DNA from: Fructilactobacillus florum DSM 22689 = JCM 16035
GTDB taxonomy: Bacteria > Bacillota > Bacilli > Lactobacillales > Lactobacillaceae
Length of the DNA: 64,000 bases
Assembly (NCBI RefSeq): GCF_001436645.1
Contig: NZ_AYZI01000004.1
Span: 36,565-100,564 of the forward strand
Reading direction: 5' to 3'
Shown here: positions 41,508 to 45,486 of the stretch, one piece after another
Layout of the letters: every line of letters begins with the position of its first letter
How positions within the stretch are numbered: position 1 is the first letter of the stretch
Position numbers and translations under genes: made by a program
The notes under the pieces: model-generated
Databases searched by the model: none
What the model saw: the letters and a program-made list of their open reading frames with translations, nothing else
What the model was told of the DNA's origin: nothing

Positions 41508-42074
41508 CTAATCGATAAAAATTTCGCTTCGATCCCTGCGGAAGGGCTGGTTTTTATCGATATGATCATAGAATAAAGTCCCGTGTAAATGATCGATTTC
41601 ATGTTGCACAATAATAGCTGGATAGTGTTTTAAGCGAACCTGATGTTCAGCACCATCAAGGTCCTGATAATGAACTGTAATTCGATCAGATCGCGGAACA
41701 TAGCCCGGGAATTCTTTGTCAACCGACAGGCATCCTTCACCTACGGTCAGGGCCGCCTGCTGAACCGAACTAGAGACGATCACGGGATTGACCATGATTG
41801 CTTTGAAGGGAGAAATCTGTTCAGGATCATCTTCATCCGGAGGAGTTAAAACTGCTGCCATCAGTTTGCCGACCCCTACTTGAGGTGCAGCTAAACCAAC
41901 GCCGGCACGGAGCTGATATTTTTCACATTGCTCCGGATCCTGACTAATTTCTAAATACTGCATCATCTTTTGACCAAGTTTGCGATCTTCAGCACTCAGG
42001 GGGTAAGGAACGGTTTCAGACTGTTGACGTAAAATTGGGTTACCATCGCGGGTAATGTCTTTCATTAAATACAA
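41508..42074 (-). CDS. def: Peptide deformylase
   Basis: Def removes the formyl group from nascent N-terminal methionine. The protein has all three motifs: GVGLAAPQ (motif 1), EGCLS with the metal-binding cysteine (motif 2), and QHEIDHLHG (motif 3). The insertion between motifs 1 and 2 is typical of the type 2 enzymes of Gram-positives. I chose a TTG start at 42074 (188 codons), 8 nt after GGAGG. The ATG at 42089 includes that site, and the next ATG is too far. It is divergent from the dehydrogenase-like gene. Confidence 0.94.
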   Translation of the reverse strand: MYLMKDITRDGNPILRQQSETVPYPLSAEDRKLGQKMMQYLEISQDPEQCEKYQLRAGVGLAAPQVGVGKLMAAVLTPPDEDDPEQISPFKAIMVNPVIVSSSVQQAALTVGEGCLSVDKEFPGYVPRSDRITVHYQDLDGAEHQVRLKHYPAIIVQHEIDHLHGTLFYDHIDKNQPFRRDRSEIFID

Positions 42075-42237
42075 ACGAGAAACCTCCATTCGCTAACATA
42101 AGAATACCTTTAATATTATATGGCAATTTGAAAATAATGGGAAATCGAACTAAAATTTAAGAAAAACTTTGTTTTTTTACAGTGGAATGTTAAATTATTA
42201 CCAGATTAGTATCTCAACTAAAAGGAGTTGGCGACTT

Positions 42238-43173
42238 ATTGAACCATTACAAATCATGATCGTTGGAGATCAACAGCGGATTCGCCAGTTTATTCAAACA
42301 TTAATCATGCATGATTGGCCGTTAAAAGTTATTGTAACGGATTTAGCAGCTTTTGAGCCAGAAGTGGTGGCTCAGCGTGGATGCCGTCGCTTTCAACTTC
42401 AATCGGTGTCAACGGACTTAACGAAAACGGCTGTTGTAATTTGGCTACCAGACACGACTTTTTTTGATGCTAAAGTAGTGGAGCCGACTGAGGTGGCGCT
42501 CTCCTTACGAACGATGATCGACGAATTACGGAGTACCGTTAATCGTCTAATTTCTGCTGGGTTTGCTGGCAAAATGATTTTTGACGTCCCTCACGACGAA
42601 ATTTTCACTTATTTTGCAGCTTACTTTTCGGGATTTGCGGTGGAGCAGATTATTGGGGTAGGAACGTTGCCACAAGAAATGCTGTTGCGCAATGAATTGT
42701 GCAACCGGTTAGGAGTAGCAAGTGATGATTTAAACGTAAACACCTTAGGATTGAATACCAATAGCTTTGTGGCTTGGAGTCGAATTTATTTAGGTTCGAT
42801 GAACCTTTTATCATATTTAAAAAGTGAGGACAATAACTTAGATTTGGACTTGTTAGAAGAACTGCAGGCGACTATTTCGGATCAAGCAATCGTTGGCAAT
42901 GAGATTATTCAGCAAAAAGCAATTTTAAAGTTGTTAGATGCCTTATTTTACCAACACGCAATTTTGTACACTGGGGTAGGTCTTAAAAAGAATAAAGACC
43001 AGCTACAATTAGCATTGGTTAACAGAATTATTAATACCAAAGGGATGCAGCATGAACTTCAGCTGCCACTTTCAGACCAAGAAGCCCAGGACTTAGCAAC
43101 GGATTTGGATTTTGCAAATGAAGTCATTACGGCTATTAAAAAGGAAAATTCAGCTGATGGAACGACGAAGTGA
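42238..43173 (+). CDS. Lactate/2-hydroxyacid dehydrogenase-fold pseudoenzyme
   Basis: The protein aligns with L-2-hydroxyisocaproate and lactate dehydrogenases along its length, for example GFAGKMIFDVP-x-IFTYFAAYFSGF-x-IIGVGTL and NSFVAWS. Catalytic positions are lost. The Asp and Arg of the TLLDTAR-type motif are replaced in TLPQEMLLR, the catalytic His of LGEHG is replaced in LGLNTNS, and the NAD-binding GxGxxG is GDQQRI. So dehydrogenase activity is unlikely. I put the start at ATT 42238, 10 nt after AAGGAG, which gives an N-terminus of normal length (MEPLQIMIVG). The first later ATG (42256) removes half of the first strand. An ATG at 42187 lies upstream of the ribosome site. It overlaps the UPF0223 gene. 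Confidence 0.7.
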   Translation: MEPLQIMIVGDQQRIRQFIQTLIMHDWPLKVIVTDLAAFEPEVVAQRGCRRFQLQSVSTDLTKTAVVIWLPDTTFFDAKVVEPTEVALSLRTMIDELRSTVNRLISAGFAGKMIFDVPHDEIFTYFAAYFSGFAVEQIIGVGTLPQEMLLRNELCNRLGVASDDLNVNTLGLNTNSFVAWSRIYLGSMNLLSYLKSEDNNLDLDLLEELQATISDQAIVGNEIIQQKAILKLLDALFYQHAILYTGVGLKKNKDQLQLALVNRIINTKGMQHELQLPLSDQEAQDLATDLDFANEVITAIKKENSADGTTK

Positions 43174-43450
43174 TAATTATGAATACCCATTATTTGACGA
43201 TTGGACAACCGCAGAACTGATGGAAGTTTTAGAATTTTTTCGTAATATTGAGCGTGCTTATCAAGATCCTCGCGGGGTACAACGTGAGCAACTTTTGCAA
43301 AGTTATCGTAATTTTCAAAAAATCAACCCGGCTCCGGCTGATCAGCACCAATTACAACGTTCATTTGAAGCTCGGTCCGGATTAGATGGCTTCCATCTAA
43401 TTAAGAGAGCACGAGATTGTCCGGAGTTGAACTGGATTAAAGCAAAGTAG
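43157..43450 (+). CDS. UPF0223 family protein
   Basis: This 97-residue protein begins MERRSDNYEYPLFDDWTTAELMEVLEFFRNIERAY and contains NFQKINPAPADQHQLQRSFEARSG, the pattern of the UPF0223 (YktA) family of small helical proteins. The start at 43157 lies inside the end of the preceding gene, with AAGGA 11 nt upstream. The reading frame open further upstream, to 43112, lies wholly within the other gene. Function unknown. Confidence 0.8.
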   Translation: MERRSDNYEYPLFDDWTTAELMEVLEFFRNIERAYQDPRGVQREQLLQSYRNFQKINPAPADQHQLQRSFEARSGLDGFHLIKRARDCPELNWIKAK

Positions 43451-43647: not shown

Positions 43648-45486
43648 TTGAAAACTAGAGATGACATTCGTAACATTGCAATTATTGCCCACGTTGACCA
43701 TGGGAAGACGACCTTGGTGAATGAACTTTTAAAGCAGTCTGATACGCTGAATGGTCATGATGAAATTCAAGACCGAGCTTTGGACTCTAACCCAATTGAG
43801 AGAGAACGTGGTATTACGATTCTTTCAAAAAATACAGCGGTTAAATACGATGACAAACAAATTAATATCCTAGATACTCCCGGACATGCCGATTTTGGTG
43901 GGGAAGTAGAACGGATTATGCGGATGGTTGATGGAGTTTTATTAGTGGTTGATGCCGCCGAAGGAACGATGCCTCAGACTCGGTTTGTGCTTAAAAAAGC
44001 TTTGGATCAACACCTTACTCCCATTGTTGTCATTAACAAAATTGATAAACCTGGAGCTCGTCCAGAAGAAGTGGTTGACGAAGTGTTGGATCTCTTCATC
44101 GAACTTGGTGCTGATGAGAGTCAGTTGGAGTTTCCGGTTGTGTATGCTTCGGCCATGAACGGAACTTCTAGTACAGAGCCAGCTCTGGACTCACAAGAAC
44201 ATACGATGAAACCAATTTTTGACGCCATTTTGTCAAACATTCCGGCTCCAATTGACAACTCTGATGAACCACTTCAATTTCAGGTTGCCATGCTAGATTA
44301 TGATGATTTTGTGGGTCGCATTGGAATTGGTCGGGTCTTTAGAGGTACCATCAAGATTGGTGATAACGTCGTGGTGATGAAGCTCGATGGTTCCCAGCAG
44401 AAATTCCGTGTTACTAAGATTATGGGATTTGTTGGTTTGAACAAGGTTGAAATTAAGGAAGCCCGTGCGGGAGACCTGATTGCCGTTTCCGGAATGGAAG
44501 ATATCAACGTGGGAGAAACGGTCGCAGCTGCTGATTGTCTTGAGGCATTACCTATTCTACGTATTGATGAGCCCACAATGCGAATGACCTTTGGAACCAA
44601 CACTTCCCCCTTTGTTGGAAAAGAAGGTAAATTTGTGACCGCCCGTCAATTAATTGACCGATTAAGTCGGGAACTTCATACTGATGTTTCATTACGAGTT
44701 GATGAAACCGATGATCCAGGTTCATGGGTGGTTTCCGGTCGTGGAGAACTGCATCTTTCGATTTTAATTGAAACCCTACGTCGTGAAGGGTTTGAACTCC
44801 AAGTTTCTCGCCCCGAGGTAATCTATAAGGAAGTTGACGGAGCCAAATGCGAACCATATGAAATGGTTCAAATTGATACTCCAGAAGAATATTCTGGTAC
44901 GATTATTGACACCCTGTCCCAACGAAAGGGTGAAATGCAAAACATGGAAAGTGTGGGGAATGGTCAAACGAGATTGAGTTTCTTAGTACCTTCTCGAGGC
45001 TTAATTGGCTACTCTACTCAATTCTTGTCCATTACGCATGGATATGGAATTATGAATCATAGCTTTGAAAAGTATGCTCCGGTAGTTAAAAATTGGGATC
45101 CCGGTCGTCGTAATGGGACCTTAGTTTCGATTAACACTGGGAAAGTTACCACTTATGCTATCATGGCGGTTCAAGATCGGGGACAGATCTTTACCGATCC
45201 TGGAACTGAGGTTTATGAAGGGATGGTTGTTGGTCAAAATTCGCGTGATAATGATATTTCTGTTAACATCACTCGTGGTCGCAACCAGACCAATGTGCGG
45301 GCTGCTGGTTCCGAAGATATCGCCAAAGTTAAAGCTCCTGTTCATTTAACGTTGGAAGAATCACTTGAATTTTTGAATAGTGATGAACTATGCGAAGTTA
45401 CGCCGGAACATATTCGCCTGCGGAAACGAATTTTGAACACGAATGAACGAGAAAAAGCGGCAAAAAAACAAAAACATAACCACTAA
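43648..45486 (+). CDS. typA: Translational GTPase TypA (BipA)
   Basis: TypA binds ribosomes and assists 50S assembly and growth under stress or cold. The 612-codon protein has the G1 motif [15 protein letters not shown], switch region RERGITI, G3 [14 protein letters not shown]4 [15 protein letters not shown], and the EF-G-like domains V and the TypA-specific C-terminus. The start is TTG at 43648 ([13 protein letters not shown]), seven nt after AAGGAGG. The long leader with a terminator hairpin suggests regulated read-through. A terminator follows the gene. Confidence 0.95.

Follow-up and report, generated by a model that had tools for sequence, protein, structure and literature searches.

Does a gene that follows lactate dehydrogenase (LDH) along its length, but appears to have lost the residues for catalysis and cofactor binding, still serve the cell, and, if so, in what capacity? 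This question is raised by a locus in the window (i.e., the whole 64,000-nucleotide stretch of Fructilactobacillus florum DNA that was analyzed), which a sequence-only reading had described as a dehydrogenase-like pseudoenzyme next to def with a retained non-enzymatic role. The features of the locus are as follows, with LDH sites in the window and the family (Asp168, Arg171, His195, Arg109, and Asn140) given in what we take to be the LDH residue numbering.

41508 to 42089, reverse strand: def (peptide deformylase; PF01327), a divergent neighbor that is not conserved family-wide
42220 to 42227, forward strand: Shine-Dalgarno-like sequence AAAAGGAG, 10 nt 5' of the ATT at 42238, read directly
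42238 to 43173, forward strand: pseudo-LDH gene (311 amino acids), with a probable ATT start and a TGA stop at 43171 to 43173; its product is modeled with a full-length LDH fold
42265 to 42282, forward strand: GDQQRI (residues 10 to 15), replacing the NAD-binding GxGxxG in the alignment
42673 to 42684, forward strand: Gln146 to Leu149 (within GTLPQEMLLR), replacing the catalytic Asp168 to Arg171 in the alignment
42754 to 42756, forward strand: Asn173 (within LGLNTNS), replacing the catalytic His195 in the alignment
42775 to 42783, forward strand: Trp180-Ser181-Arg182, a clade signature
43157 to 43450, forward strand: UPF0223 gene (PF05256, 88.5 bits; cutoff, 25), with a 17-nt overlap with the 3' end of pseudo-LDH
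43648 to 45486, forward strand: typA/bipA, the downstream neighbor here and also downstream at many related loci

The pseudo-LDH frame in the window is uninterrupted, as judged from the open reading frame and its translation. Against the NCBIfam L-LDH model (TIGR01771), the protein scored 52.2 bits (E = 5.5e-14), below the cutoff of 303.55; the intact LDH of the same genome (L175) scored 404.6 bits against this model. There were zero Pfam matches in the window protein. Among the 15 family members scanned, the NCBIfam L-LDH models matched all 15, and the Pfam models Ldh_1_C and Ldh_1_N matched 6 and 3, respectively. One of these 15 members also gave a weak PilZN match (2.1e-5), which is probably spurious. 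In phmmer searches, the matches of the window protein to solved L-LDHs began at residue 83 (best E = 1.3e-8), and the L-2-hydroxyisocaproate dehydrogenase (HicDH) 1hyh matched it far more weakly (E = 0.0021).

The structure modeling that the sequence-only reading had proposed yielded an LDH fold. The AlphaFold model, for which the input was the window protein together with four orthologs (mean pLDDT of 76.5, versus 52.6 to 60.0 in four other models; pTM of 0.80), aligns with L-LDHs over residues 1 to 305, and its comparison with the Lactobacillus casei LDH 2zqz_B gave a Z score of 27.2 and an rmsd of 3.0 over 288 aligned residues (VIA-align). The pLDDT drops below 50 at residues 171 to 180 and 192 to 197 (i.e., the former His195 loop and the segment just past it), and the C-terminal tail (residues 307 to 311) is also of low confidence. 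As modeled, the window protein keeps the full-length LDH fold. The earlier claim of a likeness to L-HicDH or LDH over the entire length thus stands with respect to the LDH fold (residues 1 to 305 of the model) but not with respect to HicDH affiliation, given the best matches to L-LDHs and the tree described below.

The missing sites named in that reading (the catalytic Asp-Arg pair at TLPQEMLLR, the catalytic His at LGLNTNS, and the NAD glycine pattern at GDQQRI) are borne out by the alignment with LDHs and HicDHs, in which no intact Asp, Arg, or His was found at the aligned positions. Moreover, Pro118 replaces Asn140 in the window protein, and the substrate loop carrying Arg109 is shortened, with Arg109 lost. 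Across 71 aligned family members, His195 and Glu194 are retained in none, Asn140 is retained in 1, Arg171 in 2, Arg109 and Thr246 in 3 each, and Asp168 in 14. Asp168 and Arg171 occur together in 0 of the 71, and the second and third glycines of the NAD motif remain in 3 and 0 members, respectively. None of the five catalytic residues is kept in 51 members, one is kept in 20, and more than one is kept in none; the intact LDH/HicDH rows have all five in 44 of 45 cases and four in the remaining case, with His195 present in all 45 by definition, because these rows were labeled by their EHG motif. This motif was the basis for calling 28 of the 71 members pseudo and every intact row intact; 40 loci and three more rows from the genus were chosen blind to it, and His195 is found in none of them. 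Exact duplicates of members and the copies L161 (broken) and L162 (apparently broken) were left out before counting; each of the 71 rows is unique, although several are nearly identical, and three pairs of duplicates occur among the 45 intact rows. Many family members have a shortened substrate loop, and the pocket loops are unlike those of LDH. Judged from the aligned sequences, active-site loss is a family-wide trait and not a one-off decay.

A shift of the catalytic residues to other places was rejected on the alignment of the 71 members, which has no His at the 195 site and no Asp-Arg pair. A His does occur within six columns of position 195 in 15 of the 71, at differing places and never at the aligned site. 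Near-invariant positions in the family comprise several glycines, Phe109 (71/71), Trp180 (71/71), and Arg182 (70/71). Arg182 is family specific, with intact LDHs having no single consistent residue at that position, and Glu282 is conserved in the family (1.00) much as in the intact rows (0.98). Since Arg182 and this LDH-shared Glu are the only near-invariant charged positions, the family shows no sign of a new catalytic set in common.

In a 75-row tree, the pseudo-LDHs occupy one side of a single branch (support of 100/99), with the 45 intact LDH/HicDH rows on the other; the branch received 100/100 in a second tree, from which eight of the nine rows flagged as long had been removed and to which twelve new rows had been added. 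Both trees were built without a malate dehydrogenase outgroup and carry long-branch warnings (the second has long rows of its own), and a single origin here means one branch only, with the root assumed to lie on the enzyme side. The reference HicDH (L044; best PDB match 1hyh, 1.4e-105) falls among the intact enzymes. Descent from HicDH was rejected, as the reference HicDH lies in the intact clade and the window protein lies across the 100/99 branch; by these sequence comparisons, the pseudo-LDH family descends from L-LDH. Set beside known systems, pseudo-LDH shares its full-length fold with L-LDH (TIGR01771/PRK00066; L. casei 2zqz and Bacillus stearothermophilus 1ldn) but lacks Asp168, Arg171, His195, Arg109, Asn140, and two NAD glycines and scores far below the family cutoff. 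HicDH (1hyh) belongs to the same superfamily, but it groups with the intact enzymes and pseudo-LDH stands apart.

Named carriers of orthologs are Fructilactobacillus lindneri, F. fructivorans, F. sanfranciscensis, and Lactobacillus sp. S2-2, and the frame is intact in all 10 genomes of the window's genus. Profile searches detected pseudo-LDH in 70 of 251 genomes (9 of 40 genera) at the family level and in 46 of 295 genomes (11 of 74 genera; one match is a fragment) at the order level. Together, these searches gave 106 different genomes with a match, of which 72 were inspected and 34 were accepted on score alone. Since a profile search across the class returned intact LDHs together with pseudo-LDHs, the cut was set at E = 1e-49, between the best intact LDH seen (159.5 bits) and the weakest counted match (174 bits); members scoring below this cut would be missed. 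The matches fall in three Lactobacillales family codes, namely, f1 (the window's), f2, and f8. The Listeria RNA rli22 (Rfam) scored above its cutoff in four of nine f8 genomes and below it in three, with no match in the other two, and there was no rli22 match in three f2 genomes or 14 controls. This distribution suggests that f8 is very probably the Listeriaceae. In the Listeria-like genomes of our set, pseudo-LDH lies between pdhD and UPF0223.

The sequence-only reading had stressed def, which does adjoin the gene in the window, and had suggested looking for orthologs with the same losses beside it. Such orthologs exist (His195 in 0 of 71), but def is adjacent in some genera only. The conserved neighbor is UPF0223, which was found downstream on the same strand in all 68 carrier loci counted. 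With UPF0223 start positions picked by Shine-Dalgarno score, its start is within 60 nt of the pseudo-LDH stop in 67 of the 68 loci and overlaps it in 39. Upstream, many genomes have pdhD, and others, including those of the window's genus, have def on the opposite strand. UPF0223 (PF05256; YktA) is a separate small protein encoded by the next gene downstream and is probably a co-translated partner of pseudo-LDH, as the gene arrangement suggests. Many genomes have UPF0223 without pseudo-LDH: UPF0223 loci fetched for genus diversity contained pseudo-LDH in 9 of 40 cases (one of them an already known carrier), and a further 13 loci contained it intact in 5 and in pieces in 2. UPF0223 therefore does not require pseudo-LDH. 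One genome (G474; L112, 2295 to 3155) has a transposase-like frame, presumably IS30-like, between pdhD and UPF0223, at the site that pseudo-LDH occupies in carriers. UPF0223 itself diverges fast within the genus (39 to 49% identity between the window copy and those of six relatives), and the window copy scores below the NCBIfam equivalog cutoff (81.7 versus 90). In a mirror-tree test, partial r was 0.29 (P = 0.001) for pseudo-LDH and UPF0223, 0.24 (P = 0.0005) for pseudo-LDH and suhB, and 0.04 for UPF0223 and suhB, across the 49 of 68 loci in which all four genes were long enough, F. fructivorans being the sole member of the window's genus. Rate covariation with UPF0223 hardly exceeds that with suhB and thus does not single out UPF0223. 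From the tree and synteny, an ancestor shared by several Lactobacillales families would have acquired an L-LDH copy at the junction upstream of UPF0223, and this copy would then have lost its active sites, been inherited with UPF0223, and been repeatedly lost from lineages.

Translation of pseudo-LDH in the window probably starts at the ATT at 42238. This assignment rests on the spacing of AAAAGGAG, on the rival in-frame starts (TTG at 42169, ATG at 42187, and ATG at 42256), for which no Shine-Dalgarno match at the usual spacing was seen by eye, and on the homologous position in F. lindneri (L002) and F. sanfranciscensis (L003), which is likewise an ATT with a Shine-Dalgarno match. The probable start codon is thus ATT in 3 of 10 genomes of the genus, counting that of the window; it is TTG in Lactobacillus sp. 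S2-2, and the other six members have ATG at or near this position. From what is established for infC, the ATT start would probably make pseudo-LDH translation in the window organism low or sensitive to initiation factor 3. The infC gene itself probably starts with ATA, a rare start codon, after TGGAGGTGA in all four genomes examined (L216 to L219; G007, G000, G009, and G006). A scan for promoter-like and terminator-like sites gave 7 versus 5.8 expected and 2 versus 2.3 expected, respectively; these counts are close to expectation, and neither class of site is therefore counted as evidence.

Relatives of the window gene are under purifying selection. Ten close pairs were compared; dS was saturated in one, and the dN/dS of pseudo-LDH was 0.021 to 0.132 in the other nine. 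These pairs, all from relatives other than close relatives of the window sequence, include two trios and so lack full independence, dS is >1 in four of the nine that could be measured, and the alignments took in open frames upstream of the start. Neighboring genes in the same pairs gave 0 to 0.116, beside which pseudo-LDH is on the high side yet still well under 1. Neutral decay was rejected on these values. Amino acid identity between the window and six genus relatives is 31 to 44% for pseudo-LDH, 69 to 81% for def, and 85 to 93% for typA. A broken copy (L161, in G462) and an apparently broken one (L162, in G489), both beside pdhD in genus code g37, indicate that the gene can be lost.

Because the active site is lost and yet the gene is kept intact by selection beside UPF0223, we regard the protein as a retained pseudoenzyme of the L-LDH family, probably with a non-enzymatic job. 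The retained role proposed at the outset is thereby supported by the family-wide site loss, the intact frames in 10 of 10 genomes, the dN/dS values, and the UPF0223 linkage. We favor, with slightly less than even confidence, a non-catalytic, LDH-like oligomeric protein that would act by contacting other proteins, UPF0223 being the likeliest candidate partner. Pseudo-LDH would retain the core of LDH, would assemble into oligomers like those of LDH, and would act as a scaffold or adaptor through protein-protein contact rather than by catalysis; the adjoining, often overlapping downstream frame suggests the UPF0223 protein as the most likely contact. A more specific version, which we consider doubtful, is that pseudo-LDH and UPF0223 may form a Lactobacillales-specific complex in which the dead enzyme, labeled L-LDH in databases, is a structural or regulatory subunit, with the ATT start tying its level to initiation factor 3 in some Fructilactobacillus.

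Several other explanations can be weighed against this proposal, and we rank them, from the most to the least probable, as a ligand sensor, a dead LDH subunit, an enzyme with new chemistry, an accessory of pyruvate dehydrogenase, and a relic. The pocket loops that differ from LDH, the short substrate loop of many members, and the kept fold would suit a sensor whose remodeled pocket binds a non-NAD metabolite and signals via UPF0223 or another partner. Such a sensor is unlikely: besides Arg182, no charged residue is both family specific and near-invariant in the 71 members, which suggests no common ligand, and the low-confidence loops, which leave the pocket beyond judgment from the model, also count against it. 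Less likely again, pseudo-LDH might mix into the cell's own L-LDH tetramers and tune their activity or allosteric response. Its L-LDH descent, the presence of at least one intact LDH-like gene in each of the 10 genus genomes, and the near-invariant Trp-Ser-Arg at what we take to be LDH positions 203 to 205, presumably close to the P-axis interface, are consistent with this arrangement; however, by branch length, pseudo-LDHs have evolved at a much higher rate than intact LDHs from the genomes that encode them, which is not expected of a subunit constrained by a conserved partner, and their distribution is uneven (present in 70 of the 251 genomes of the family), whereas intact LDHs are common.

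An enzyme with a new chemistry at migrated residues is improbable. Some pseudoenzymes have been found to be active in other ways (PMC10211241), and subgroup-specific sites are conceivable, but no His, Asp, Cys, or Lys is conserved at ≥75% across the family, the Asp168-Arg171 pair is found in no member, and the NAD glycines are gone. The gene directly upstream is pdhD in many carriers, and pseudo-LDH might regulate the pyruvate dehydrogenase complex encoded there or serve as one of its accessory subunits. This role is disfavored, being slightly less probable still, as an E1_dh match is absent from all five Fructilactobacillus genomes tested and from G719, all of them pseudo-LDH carriers (it is present in three other carriers), and persistence without E1_dh indicates a role not tied to pyruvate dehydrogenase. 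Least probable of all is a slowly decaying, functionless relic; high divergence, broken copies, and patchy presence would fit it, but the dN/dS of 0.02 to 0.13 in the nine measurable pairs, the frames intact throughout the genus, and the fixed UPF0223 linkage argue against it.

Listeria lmo1057, which by its gene order would lie between pdhD and UPF0223, is probably a member of the pseudo-LDH family. In PMC7880126, lmo1057 (Q8Y860) is called L-lactate dehydrogenase and is among the proteins unique to lactocin-treated biofilm cells; it is also named in a table of PMC5750592. Among titles and abstract openings of the openly licensed PubMed Central literature, we found no description of a comparable LDH pseudoenzyme from bacteria. 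Databases probably label pseudo-LDH as lactate dehydrogenase, lmo1057 being the one such label seen, and metabolic models may be misled as a result. The family offers a natural series from a core metabolic enzyme to a non-enzyme, in which Asp168 is kept in 14 of 71 members and His195 and Glu194 are lost in all 71. A dead LDH that appears to be under purifying selection beside an uncharacterized gene would also provide a direct handle on UPF0223.
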